Shown: in pieces, positions 4,027-13,588 of the stretch
How the letters are laid out: each line of letters opens with the position of its first letter
How positions within the stretch are numbered: the first letter of the stretch is position 1
Origin: a bacterium
Lineage (GTDB): Bacteria; B130-G9
NCBI GenBank assembly: GCA_021160245.1
Contig: JAGHCW010000217.1
Span: forward strand, 1-14,578
DNA length: 14,578 bases
Reading direction: 5' to 3'
Program-made: the position numbers and the translations under genes
The notes under the pieces: model-generated
What the model was told of the DNA's origin: nothing
Databases searched by the model: none
What the model saw: only the letters and a program-made list of their open reading frames with translations

Positions 4027-4536
4027 CTAATGTAGAGGCCTGACCATCACGAGCGCGTCCTCGCCATCGGGGTAATAGCCCTTCTCCACATGGTGGACGC
4101 TGAATACGTGCTTCCGATAAAGCTCGATAGCTGCCTCATTGGACTTCCTGACCTCCAAAACCGCCGTGCTGAGATTCTTCTTGGCGAACCTGTCCAGCGC
4201 ATGAAGAAGAAGCTGCTCGCCCCACCCGGCGCCTCTAAATTTCTTGGAAACGGCTAGATTCAGAATGTGGCCCAGGCCAACCTCGCGCATCAGGCAGACA
4301 TAGCCGGCCAGCTCGGTGTCCCCGTTCGCGCTTTCATGCTCCAGCACGAATACTGACCCGCGAAATCCCCCAGGGGATTTGGCCAGGAAAAGAAACGCAG
4401 AACGCGACCAAGGGTGTGGAAACGTCTCCTGCTCAACGCGATAGACATCCGGTAGGTCGCGCCCGCGGAAGGGGCGAATTTTGAACTCGCCGGAGGGCTT
4501 GGGCATATCCCGGGTAGTAAGCTCTTCAGGTGGCAT
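4027..4536 (-). CDS. rimI: Ribosomal protein S18-alanine N-acetyltransferase
   Basis: 169 residues with a GNAT fold. RimI-type landmarks in order: ExxxFPHPWS (35-44), the acetyl-CoA loop KFRGAGWGEQLL (99-110), LEVRKSNEAAIELY (127-140) and KGYYPDGEDALVM (152-164), the C-terminal signature of RimI. It acetylates the N-terminal alanine of ribosomal protein S18 from acetyl-CoA. The short extra N-terminus (about 10 residues) means translation could also begin at M11; the ATG at 4536 has AGGGA about 10 nt upstream. It follows tsaB in the usual tsaB-rimI order and is immediately followed by the cytochrome gene. A 20-codon open frame overlaps its start from the tsaB side. Confidence 0.9.
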   Translation of the reverse strand: MPPEELTTRDMPKPSGEFKIRPFRGRDLPDVYRVEQETFPHPWSRSAFLFLAKSPGGFRGSVFVLEHESANGDTELAGYVCLMREVGLGHILNLAVSKKFRGAGWGEQLLLHALDRFAKKNLSTAVLEVRKSNEAAIELYRKHVFSVHHVEKGYYPDGEDALVMVRPLH

Positions 4537-4588
4537 GACCGACGCGTCCCTGCATGACTTCCAAGAGCGACCTGATCATCTTCACCAT
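4526..4588 (-). other. Possible 20-codon mini-ORF linking tsaB and rimI
   Basis: Its ATG overlaps the tsaB stop (TGATG) and is preceded at ideal distance by AAGGAGG, the best Shine-Dalgarno sequence in this stretch. It encodes MVKMIRSLLEVMQG... and stops 11 bases inside rimI, in a different frame. It may be a relay peptide carrying ribosomes from tsaB to the rimI start. Chance is possible, because AAGGAGG also encodes tsaB codons (K-E-A). Confidence 0.3.
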
Positions 4589-5310
4589 CACCCGGCCTCC
4601 TTGCCCTTGGGCGCACCGTTCTTTGCATCCCTAGCAAGCTCAGCGTTCGATTTCCTAAGATAGGCCGGACGAATATCCGCCGGACCAACTGTCGGCCTAT
4701 TTTTCGCGCATTCCGCCACGCACGCTACAATGCTGCTTCCGCGGGCATGGCGAAGGTGATGAGGCGCAAGCACATATTCAGAGCTCATGGCGGCTGAAAT
4801 GACATCTCCATAGACATCTATACCCGTGCCCAAGAAGATGACCTTCTCGCCGGAAACCAGCCGCAAGACCTCCTCAGGCTCAACGGCTGCCTCAGCGGTT
4901 TCCCTGACCATTCCGGCTTCCAAAAATCGAAAGAGCGCGGAGAAGACCTCGCCGCGCCTCGCATCAATCATCGGGCAGATAATGTGCGAGGAGCCGGCGT
5001 AGTTGAAGGCAAGACCCTCAAGCGACGAGAATGGCGTAAGCTCTTTGCCCTCTGCGAAGGCTAGCCCCTGCATGACGCTAATGCCAATCCTGAGGCCGGT
5101 GAATGAGCCGGGGCCTATTGAGACCCCTAGCACATCAACGTCATGTATGGGGCAATCAACCGAACTGAGCAGATAATCAATACAGCTGAGCAATCGCTGT
5201 GAATGCGTTTGGCCGATCGAGATATTGATCTCCGCGCACGTCTCGCTGTCCGTGTCTAGAAAGCCCACGGCACCGACCTGGGTCGAGGTGTCAACCGCGA
5301 GAATTCTCAT
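4588..5310 (-). CDS. tsaB: tRNA threonylcarbamoyladenosine biosynthesis protein TsaB
   Basis: About 240 residues, close to the usual TsaB length (about 230). It begins MRILAVDTSTQVGAVGF and carries the diagnostic GPGSFTGLRIG at 66-76. It ends with the family's PAYLR...AE segment. TsaB is an ASKHA-fold protein that pairs with TsaD (and TsaE) in transferring threonylcarbamoyl to A37 of ANN-decoding tRNAs; it acts in the cytoplasm. The frame stays open to 5367, but those 19 extra residues do not fit the family, so I start at 5310. No Shine-Dalgarno precedes that ATG. An upstream 11-codon frame with a good GGAGGG ends in ATGA across the start, which may supply ribosomes. tsaD and tsaE are not in this window. 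Confidence 0.93.
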   Translation of the reverse strand: MRILAVDTSTQVGAVGFLDTDSETCAEINISIGQTHSQRLLSCIDYLLSSVDCPIHDVDVLGVSIGPGSFTGLRIGISVMQGLAFAEGKELTPFSSLEGLAFNYAGSSHIICPMIDARRGEVFSALFRFLEAGMVRETAEAAVEPEEVLRLVSGEKVIFLGTGIDVYGDVISAAMSSEYVLAPHHLRHARGSSIVACVAECAKNRPTVGPADIRPAYLRKSNAELARDAKNGAPKGKEAG

Positions 5311-5342
5311 GGCCAAGAGGGATGCAGCACAAGTTGCTTCAT
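5307..5342 (-). other. Possible 11-codon leader peptide coupled to tsaB
   Basis: GGAGGG lies 9 nt before an ATG that opens MKQLVLHPSWP and closes with TGA overlapping the tsaB start codon (ATGA). tsaB itself lacks a recognisable ribosome site, so translational coupling from this leader would explain how it is initiated. Too short to support by homology. Confidence 0.3.
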
Positions 5343-5409
5343 ACCCCACATCCCTCCGCAGTTCCATTGCTCAGCATAGACAGCAAACTCATCGCTCTCC
5401 GAGTGTGTA

Positions 5410-10947: not shown

Positions 10948-10998
10948 AATCGGCTCCCTTATAATCAACACCCCGGGAACAAACCTAATGAGTTTTAG

Positions 10999-11027
10999 AG
11001 CCTACGAAGAGAGCTCTTGCCTGTCAA
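10999..11027 (-). promoter_or_regulatory. Candidate sigma70-type promoter of the MBL-DUF2723-ALDH unit
   Basis: On the minus strand a perfect -35 TTGACA (11027-11022) is followed after 17 bp by TAGGCT (11004-10999), which keeps positions 1, 2 and 6 of TATAAT. Transcription would start near 10992, giving a leader of about 45 nt before GTG 10947. It lies in the spacer after the methyltransferase gene, so the downstream unit need not depend on the RM cassette. Confidence 0.5.
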
Positions 11028-11085
11028 GGGCGCCGACGGTGTGTGATGCTGTCCAATGGAGTGAATCGCTCAAGATTGCCCGCAG

Positions 11086-12033
11086 CTAGGCAGGCATGTC
11101 CTCCTGAAAAAGCGAAAACTGATCTCTCGCAACTGCAGACCGTACCTTCAATCGTTGCAGAAAGAGCATCTTCGGCGAGACATGCTCGCGGGCGATGCGC
11201 ATTCTCGCTATCTGGCAATAGGAGGGATTGAGATCGATCCCTATGAAGTTCCGACCTGCGGAATTTGCTGCAACGCAGGTCGAGCCGGAGCCGCTGAACA
11301 TATCCAGGACGATGTCGCCTGAGAAACCGACGCTGGGATCCTTCCGAAATGTGTACATCAGCATAAGTCGCAAAGGCAGAACAACGGGAAACGGCGCTGG
11401 ATGCCCGCCAGCACGCTTGACATCCTCAGGATAAATCGGCCAAACCTGCATCGCCAGATTGCGCCATTGCTCCTGCGTCAACTTGCTGGCCTCCTTCGCC
11501 TCGCGCGGAAGGCCAACGGGCTTCCCGTCCTTGACAAGGACGTTTATAAACTCGATCGTGTTGTCCTCGAAGATATTGGGGGGATATGGATAGCTGCCAA
11601 ACATCTTAACCGATGTCTGTTTCTGCCAAATAAATACGCTATAGCGATTAAGGCCCTTCATGCCTGCCAGTATCGATTGCTCAATGTCGCTGGCGATGTT
11701 CTTCAGGTGTCTTGTATGCTGCGTATTCGACACGCTTTTGGGAAGAGGCATGATGGGCGCCACAATCGCTAGCTTTCCATTGGGGATCAAAATCCTAAGC
11801 GTTTCGCGCCAAATGGGGACCAGGTCTTCGATGTATCTAGCATAATCGCTCTGACCAACTTGACCGTCCACGCCGTAGTCCTTGACGTTCCAATAGGGCG
11901 GGCTGGTAACGGCCAGCGCGATACACTCGTCAGGGAGGCGCTTGAGCGCACGCAACGCATCATCATTTATTATCTCGTTGATCGAGTCCCGAGGCCAATT
12001 ATTCGTATCAGGTATTCTGTATATCAAGCCCAT
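11086..12033 (-). CDS. Type II DNA methyltransferase, beta class (likely N4-cytosine or N6-adenine)
   Basis: 315 residues. The catalytic motif IV TSPPYWNVKDYG (43-54) comes before the AdoMet motif I DMFSGSGST (244-252), the beta-class order. IGIDLNPSYCQIA (264-276) follows, and GHPAPFPVVLPLRL (210-223) is the usual motif X region. SPPYW is most often seen in N4-cytosine methyltransferases, though some N6-adenine enzymes share it. It protects the cassette's own recognition sites. Its start overlaps the end of the nuclease gene by 26 bp, so the two are co-translated. At ATG 12033 the AAGAGG is too close (one base), which makes TTG 12027 a fair alternative. No separate specificity domain is obvious; the stretch between the motifs must read the site. 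Confidence 0.88.
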   Translation of the reverse strand: MGLIYRIPDTNNWPRDSINEIINDDALRALKRLPDECIALAVTSPPYWNVKDYGVDGQVGQSDYARYIEDLVPIWRETLRILIPNGKLAIVAPIMPLPKSVSNTQHTRHLKNIASDIEQSILAGMKGLNRYSVFIWQKQTSVKMFGSYPYPPNIFEDNTIEFINVLVKDGKPVGLPREAKEASKLTQEQWRNLAMQVWPIYPEDVKRAGGHPAPFPVVLPLRLMLMYTFRKDPSVGFSGDIVLDMFSGSGSTCVAANSAGRNFIGIDLNPSYCQIARMRIAREHVSPKMLFLQRLKVRSAVARDQFSLFQEDMPA

Positions 12034-13459
12034 GCCTCTTGAATTGTATGAATTGCTTGTAGTTTCCCTTCAGCAAACCAATTCGCGAGTACCTCGCGCT
12101 TTCCGGAAACAGCCCGGCCAAGATAATTCCTCGAACGTTGCCGGCCGCGTCAGGAATATTCCGATGAACCCAACCAATATACCGCAGAATCTGGCCAAAG
12201 ACCGAATCTCTGGCCTCTTGCGCCTTAATTTCCACAACCACGTATTCTCCCAGCTCGCTAAGGCACAAGAGATCGATGCGACCAATAGGCGTAGAGTACT
12301 GCCTGCCCGAGTCCACCAGCTTGAGGCCTTTTTCTAGCTGACCTAGATTCGTAACATAGAAAGTCTCAATGTCTTTTTCGATCTGCTTTCTCTCAACTAC
12401 TTCTGCTTCCTCTTTCGTTAGCAAGTTCTTGCCCTCGGCCACAAGATCTTCGACCTCGCCTCTCGCTTGTGCCCCGTCAATCGCCAGGCAAAGATAAGTG
12501 AACCATGAGGGCTTCTGAAGCGGATCACCAAAATAGGCAAACCAGTCCGCCAAACTGCCAAACGTAGATACCTTCAAGCTGGGCAAGTGCTCCTGAAGCA
12601 ATCTGTCCACTTGGTCAACCGCCCTGCACACTATTGAGTCGTTCTCTACATCCAAGTAGTCAGGATAACAGAAAAACGAGCGCTGATAACTAGCGCTCAG
12701 ATGTATTCGAGTGTACCGCGTCTGCGGATTCGATGCAACGTCACCATCCCAGAATGACCCCGAGCGAAATCCCGCTTGAGTCATAGGTACCCTCCTGGCC
12801 AGCTCCAGCAGCAAATGCCTTTCATCATCCCCAAGGTCTCTCCAGTGCAAAACATAGTTGCTGACAAGATCAAGGTCCTCATGGCTCTGTGCTAGGTTCA
12901 GGAAAAGCTCGTATTCGGTAAAGGCGATCGTGTAATCACAAATGCTAAGAATCTGTAGGAGAAAGAGGTGTGGAACAATGCCTAGGAACTCCGGTGCATA
13001 ACTGCCCGCGATGGTCGGGTTAGGGTATTGAAATTTCGCAATCTGAGATTCGATGACAGGTCGAGCAGCGATCGATTCGCCGCCGATGAGGTCAAGTCCC
13101 GCATCTGTGATCATAATCTCGGAATCATCTTGAATCCACAAAAGCCCCAGTGCTTCAAGGAGTTTTTTCCATATCCTCACTAGTGCAGTACGGTCTTGCT
13201 GAGTTCCATCTGGCACCCTAGGTTCGAGTAAGCCTTTTTTCATGAGTCTTCCAAGCAACCTGTCCTGGGTGGTCGGATTCCAAATCGCGCCCAGAAATTC
13301 GTTGAAGACCGTCTCTAATATGCTGTACACGGCCTCAACATTTTCGCTCTTGAGCGCTCTGGCCTTCGGAACATACCAATAGGTTGAGCAGGCTTCGTAG
13401 CGCGAGAGAAAATCCTCAAAAACATCTCTGAAAGGGAACTTACTGGGTAACCCAACCAT
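12008..13459 (-). CDS. Restriction endonuclease with NucS/DUF91-type PD-(D/E)xK nuclease domain
   Basis: 483 residues. From about 358 to 450 it matches the NucS/DUF91 nuclease: IEKDIE (360-365), GRQYSTPIGRIDLLC (385-399), VVVEIKA (407-413; E410, K412) and GQILRYIGWV (422-431), supplying D396, E410, K412 and Q423 of a PD-(D/E)xK core. The N-terminal 350 residues look like a DNA-reading part, with a winged-helix-like stretch (ILETVFNEFLG to ITDAGLDLI, 47-125) and FQYPNP (143-148). This part may be AlwI/BstNBI-related, but that is only an impression. Context is decisive: the overlapping methyltransferase makes this the cleaving partner. The ATG at 13459 has GAGG about 10 nt upstream and a strong promoter ahead. 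The gene is visibly poorer in GC than its neighbours, a sign of transfer. No controller gene was found. Confidence 0.82.
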   Translation of the reverse strand: MVGLPSKFPFRDVFEDFLSRYEACSTYWYVPKARALKSENVEAVYSILETVFNEFLGAIWNPTTQDRLLGRLMKKGLLEPRVPDGTQQDRTALVRIWKKLLEALGLLWIQDDSEIMITDAGLDLIGGESIAARPVIESQIAKFQYPNPTIAGSYAPEFLGIVPHLFLLQILSICDYTIAFTEYELFLNLAQSHEDLDLVSNYVLHWRDLGDDERHLLLELARRVPMTQAGFRSGSFWDGDVASNPQTRYTRIHLSASYQRSFFCYPDYLDVENDSIVCRAVDQVDRLLQEHLPSLKVSTFGSLADWFAYFGDPLQKPSWFTYLCLAIDGAQARGEVEDLVAEGKNLLTKEEAEVVERKQIEKDIETFYVTNLGQLEKGLKLVDSGRQYSTPIGRIDLLCLSELGEYVVVEIKAQEARDSVFGQILRYIGWVHRNIPDAAGNVRGIILAGLFPESARYSRIGLLKGNYKQFIQFKRHGLDIQNT

Positions 13460-13512
13460 CGCCCGCTTGCCTCATGTTGCGCCGTCATTCAATCCCTGAT
13501 CCATTAAGCCAT

Positions 13513-13540
13513 ATTGTAAGAAGCAAACGCAGAATGTCAA
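13513..13540 (-). promoter_or_regulatory. Near-consensus sigma70-type promoter of the restriction-modification cassette
   Basis: The minus strand reads TTGACA (13540-13535), 16 bp, TACAAT (13518-13513): a 6/6 -35 and a 5/6 -10. Transcription would begin near 13506, with a leader of about 47 nt before ATG 13459. The -35 begins inside the T-run that may terminate the upstream gene. Confidence 0.65.
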
Positions 13541-13565
13541 AAAACAATTCACAGCATCTTGAATC
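13539..13565 (-). terminator. Possible weak intrinsic terminator after the 13589-14578 gene
   Basis: On the minus strand GATTCA and TGAATT (13565-13560 and 13551-13546) can pair around an 8-base loop, directly followed by six T residues (13544-13539). The stem is AT-rich with one G.U pair, so termination would be weak. The T-run overlaps the -35 of the RM promoter. Confidence 0.3.
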
Positions 13566-13588
13566 TCGCACGCGCAGCCTACGCTCTG

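Follow-up and report, generated by a model that had tools for sequence, protein, structure and literature searches.

The NucS-type nucleases (NucS/EndoMS, PF01939) carry a catalytic domain that is best known from mismatch repair, and the members whose structures have been solved act as dimers. The restriction enzymes AlwI, Nt.BspD6I (BstNBI), PleI and MlyI (PF09491) belong to a different family, in which an N-terminal recognition domain of about 300 residues accompanies a catalytic domain with a PD...EVT motif, and a DNA methyltransferase is encoded alongside, a single one in the case of MlyI. The N-terminal domain of BspD6I consists of two subdomains and is taken as the DNA-binding part (PMC8533099). 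The HpyAII system of Helicobacter (site GAAGA) has an HNH nuclease and two methyltransferases, one of which, M2.HpyAII, produces m4C on TCTTC (PMC7494987).

We analyzed a stretch of 14,578 nucleotides, here called the window, that contains a nuclease gene (R) and a methyltransferase gene (M). R shares with NucS/EndoMS the catalytic domain and its catalytic residues, but has no match to the N-terminal half of NucS, carries a restriction reader and sits in a restriction-modification (R-M) cassette. With the AlwI/Nt.BspD6I family it shares a homologous recognition domain and an adjacent methyltransferase, but its catalytic domain is of the NucS type (D...ExK...Q), its methyltransferase is of the SPPYW type and not Dam-like, and it is shorter, with 483 aa compared with 568-715 aa for the AlwI-type proteins collected here. 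The same architecture and pairing are found on plasmids pTK7 of Sphingobium and pDC09 of Rhizorhabdus (27% identity for R and 46% for M), where, unlike in the window, the M gene comes first; annotation there goes no further than "endonuclease NucS domain-containing protein" or hypothetical. We consider it probable that the two genes of the window form a mobile R-M pair of Type II, and most likely of Type IIS, with an AlwI-type reader, a NucS-type cutter and an SPPYW protector.

Gene layout and relatives of the R-M pair

The open reading frames agree with a preliminary description of this DNA as a two-gene R-M cassette in which the nuclease gene comes first, an SPPYW methyltransferase gene overlaps it and a controller gene is absent; the flanking gaps (10972-11085 and 13460-13588) hold no ORF longer than 44 aa. 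Feature coordinates are given in Table 1. Translation of the two genes is likely coupled through their overlap, and an overlap of equal length (26 bp) is present in the relative at locus L003. Promoter-like sites numbered four across the whole region, compared with 2.8 expected in shuffled sequences, and the site at the start of M could be due to chance.

Table 1. Features of the R-M pair in the window
Feature	Position	Strand	Basis
R gene (483 aa), coding for a putative Type IIS restriction endonuclease	12008..13459	(-)	ORF; six full-length relatives, each adjoining an M homologue
Reader, residues ~37-315, homologous to the AlwI/Nt.BspD6I N-terminal recognition domain	12515..13351	(-)	hhalign; PF09491 in relatives
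NucS-type PD-(D/E)XK catalytic domain, residues 361-450	12110..12379	(-)	Pfam PF01939, E=1.1e-10
M gene, SPPYW DNA methyltransferase, 315 aa	11086..12033	(-)	ORF
26 bp shared by the 3' end of R and the start of M	12008..12033	(-)	ORF coordinates
Sigma-70-like promoter upstream of R, TTGACA-16-TACAAT	13513..13540	(-)	consensus match only, 11/12
Weak promoter-like site at M start	11998..12027	(-)	consensus match only, 10/12

Using tblastn and profile searches we found six full-length relatives of R, with identities of 58% (L003), 53% (L004), 44% (L005 and L023), 28% (L022) and 27% (L008). They come from three other phyla, with sources in Planctomycetota, Dehalococcoidia/Chloroflexota and the Sphingobium plasmid, whose R-M genes are also present on the Rhizorhabdus plasmid. 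A homologue of M directly adjoins R in all six, so that the pairing holds at 7/7 loci including the window, a recurrence well above what chance would give, and at none of these seven is there a second conserved gene besides M. Four of the relatives share the R-M order of the window, while L022 and L008 have the order M-R. The trees of R and M contain the same groups, and nuclease and methyltransferase thus appear both paired and co-inherited, as is characteristic of Type II R-M systems. We found the pair in two genomes among 392 from Planctomycetota and in two among 400 from Chloroflexota, one of each two being a genome already known, and full-length R was present in one of four genomes of the window's own phylum. 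With GC contents of 0.50 and 0.53, R and M are poorer in GC than the neighboring genes (0.55-0.59). Given this pairing, the two gene orders, the agreeing trees, the sporadic spread and the lower GC, the picture is one of a Type II R-M pair whose genes are inherited together and move horizontally. An empty-site comparison in the relatives placed the flanking genes on different contigs in genome G002.

Two observations concern the surroundings of these genes. On pTK7, R and M directly follow a RelE/ParE-HigA toxin-antitoxin pair (L008:3007-3829). Elsewhere in the window, two adjacent genes (4027-4536 and 4588-5367), by eye rimI-like (ribosomal acetyltransferase) and tsaB-like (threonylcarbamoyl-adenosine protein), would represent an ordinary chromosomal pairing.

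Reader and catalytic domain of R

The preliminary description could not place about 350 residues of the nuclease and offered an AlwI-like reader as a possibility. A direct Pfam scan did not report RE_AlwI (PF09491) in the window R itself, and its link to AlwI therefore runs through the relatives and the family profile. Five of the six relatives did match PF09491, three of them above the curated cut-off, with a best value of 1.9e-11 at about residues 103-217. For the profile comparison, AlwI-type proteins were represented by six Chloroflexota sequences (loci L045-L050), whose profile matches the solved Nt.BspD6I (2ewf) at E=1e-87. Using hhalign, columns 39-312 of a profile of the seven R proteins aligned with positions 10-301 of the AlwI profile (probability 97.7, E=1.9e-12, score 101), and 2 reversed and 20 shuffled controls scored no higher than 23. 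The profile match, its controls and the role of the BspD6I N-terminal domain together show, at the level of homology, that the formerly unplaced residues are mostly an AlwI-type reader, which is our main new result. The structural half of the check that had been proposed for residues 1-350 was less informative, since the mean pLDDT of the model (51) is too low to judge the reader; at this confidence the absence of BspD6I from its matches carries no weight. The AlwI-type catalytic domain, with its PD...EVT motif, was not found in R. Among the Chloroflexota AlwI-type genes, three (L048:3865-6860, L049:2504-5809 and L050:437-3913) each adjoin a single DPPYN methyltransferase, two others (L045 and L046) come with a double Dam-like methyltransferase in fused form, and L047 has two separate ones.

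The C-terminal part of R carries the NucS/DUF91 signature noted earlier, with GRIDLLC at residues 393-399, VVVEIKA at 407-413 and GQILRYIGWV at 422-431, and its match to NucS_C (PF01939) exceeds the curated Pfam cut-off. The NCBIfam NucS profile matched this C-terminal part only (6e-12, 45 bits compared with a full-length cut-off of 216) and had no match to R in the N-terminal half, so R does not qualify as a full-length NucS. The same stretch is matched by the PADLOC candidate profiles PDC-S02. Among PDB entries, the R family profile matched Pyrococcus abyssi NucS (2vld, 6.4e-9) and EndoMS (5gke, 1e-7). The catalytic residues D396, E410, K412 and Q423 are intact in R and invariant in all seven proteins, so that the D, ExK and Q of the PD-(D/E)XK core characteristic of the PF01939 family are all present; loss of this fold, which would have spoken against the preliminary description, is not what we see. 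In a structure model built from a four-sequence alignment (mean pLDDT 51), residues 378-458 resembled 2vld (Z 6.0, 3.6 A over 75 residues), which lends weak support to the NucS part. A prediction from the single sequence (pLDDT 35) gave an unusable model.

We also considered that the AlwI catalytic domain might itself be a divergent NucS domain. This gained no support, as hhalign found no detectable relation between the AlwI catalytic part (PD...EVT) and the C-terminal part of R (probability 0.1, E=0.67). Because of this result it looks as if the cutting module has been exchanged behind a conserved AlwI-type reader, although the two catalytic parts may be related by divergence beyond detection. 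Within the titles and abstracts searched, with REBASE outside the search, we found no description of an AlwI reader fused to NucS and no characterized enzyme with the layout of R, the discovery of which would also have told against the preliminary description. None of the papers covered by the literature search contains both AlwI and NucS. R would then be a compact, natural case of a restriction-enzyme reader that has swapped its cutting domain for one from a different nuclease family. Provided that it is active, R would add a new cleavage module to the Type IIS enzymes and could help in engineering nickases or chimeric nucleases. The result also shifts into restriction some proteins whose annotation stops at "NucS domain".

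Methyltransferase M

M has the motif order of a beta-class enzyme (motif IV, SPPYW, before motif I) and is probably an m4C methyltransferase. It matches PF01555 (1.4e-32) and PADLOC MTase_II (2e-55), and its closest solved structures are 2zie (TTHA0409, 1.8e-37) followed by the N4-cytosine methyltransferase 8s9n. An SPPY-type methyltransferase on a Helicobacter suis plasmid is 40-43% identical to M and lies in a cassette with a MboIIA-like m6A enzyme and a nuclease that by eye has an HNH-like motif, an arrangement that appears HpyAII-like. By cassette, M2.HpyAII is thus the nearest characterized relative of M, and since it produces m4C, the same modification is likely for M. The HpyAII-like nuclease of the H. 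suis plasmid (L011:5509-6807) showed a faint likeness to the AlwI-type reader (hhalign probability 35, E=4e-4). We did not accept a shared reader from this faint hint, which does hint that the AlwI-type reader may be common to several nuclease types.

Proposed recognition, cleavage and protection

By analogy with AlwI, BspD6I and MlyI, the N-terminal ~315 residues of R would bind a short, probably asymmetric site, and the NucS-type PD-(D/E)XK domain would cut the DNA a short distance from it. A Type IIS assignment (asymmetric site, cleavage outside it) is most likely and follows from the reader family. Both strands would be cut, most likely through dimerization of two catalytic domains, which we propose because the neighboring genes include none for a separate small catalytic subunit. 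M, probably acting on N4 of cytosine, would protect the host by treating the site of R as an ambiguous palindrome and could in this way mark both strands on its own, as in MlyI/M.MlyI. Published precedents suggest this site geometry and mode of protection.

The preliminary description held that the usual delay of the nuclease behind the methylase must be achieved otherwise, and that, with an AlwI-like reader of an asymmetric site, a single methylase could protect only one strand, which would be notable. Both statements appear too strong. A nuclease gene in first place with no controller is the arrangement of EcoRI, which is not known to have a C gene. Operons that start with R and in which M has an additional promoter within R are described for EcoRI and for another system, printed as Eco29I (PMC3874152). 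In some Type IIS systems, among them MlyI (GAGTC, methyltransferase GASTC) and BbvI, one methyltransferase reads a quasi-palindrome symmetrically (PMC4081073). The AlwI family as given in PMC9799307 includes MlyI, and the Chloroflexota AlwI-type loci L048-L050 likewise have one adjacent methyltransferase. We therefore rejected both the gene order and the single methyltransferase as unusual features.

The single methyltransferase at all seven loci would also suit a Type IIP-like enzyme, in which an R dimer recognizes a symmetric site and one methyltransferase suffices trivially. The placement of Bsp6I (GCNGC) in the AlwI family (PMC9799307) is consistent with such an arrangement, but most characterized readers of the family have asymmetric 5-bp sites and cut outside them, and we regard a symmetric site as unlikely. 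It is less likely still that R is a sequence-specific nickase, cutting one strand as a monomer or requiring a second catalytic subunit encoded elsewhere. Nt.BspD6I, the closest solved relative of the reader family, is indeed a large subunit that nicks DNA and depends on a small partner subunit. Against this speaks that M is the only conserved gene accompanying R across the seven loci, as does the catalytic domain of R, which is of another family whose solved NucS/EndoMS members are dimers.

One-strand protection as in the MmeI family, where M would modify one strand and R would need two opposed unmodified sites, seems improbable to us. It would account for the single methyltransferase, and M2.HpyAII marks the TCTTC strand only, but MmeI-type enzymes are single-chain RM proteins of a different layout and the AlwI reader family already offers a known example of the quasi-palindromic solution. 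We give equally little weight to the idea that the NucS module, through its own mode of cleavage (a dimer around a distorted or looped duplex, or action at two sites), senses more than an unmodified site, with the single methyltransferase protecting one strand only. That R is a NucS repair nuclease merely adjoining a methyltransferase, as the association of its domain with mismatch repair might suggest, is hardly credible given the missing NucS N-terminal half, the AlwI reader and an R-M pairing that recurs both on a plasmid and across unrelated genomes.

Our preferred reading thus remains a Type IIS-like R with both strands protected by M. Relatives of R were found neither in a scan of viral contigs with the R profile nor in phage records. 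The same is not true of M, since viral contigs carry orphan homologues (L024:3974-4918 and L025:3998-4921) with no recognizable partner nuclease nearby. The first of these is 81% identical to M of the Sphingobium plasmid pTK7, and a probable role of these phage-borne enzymes is counter-restriction.
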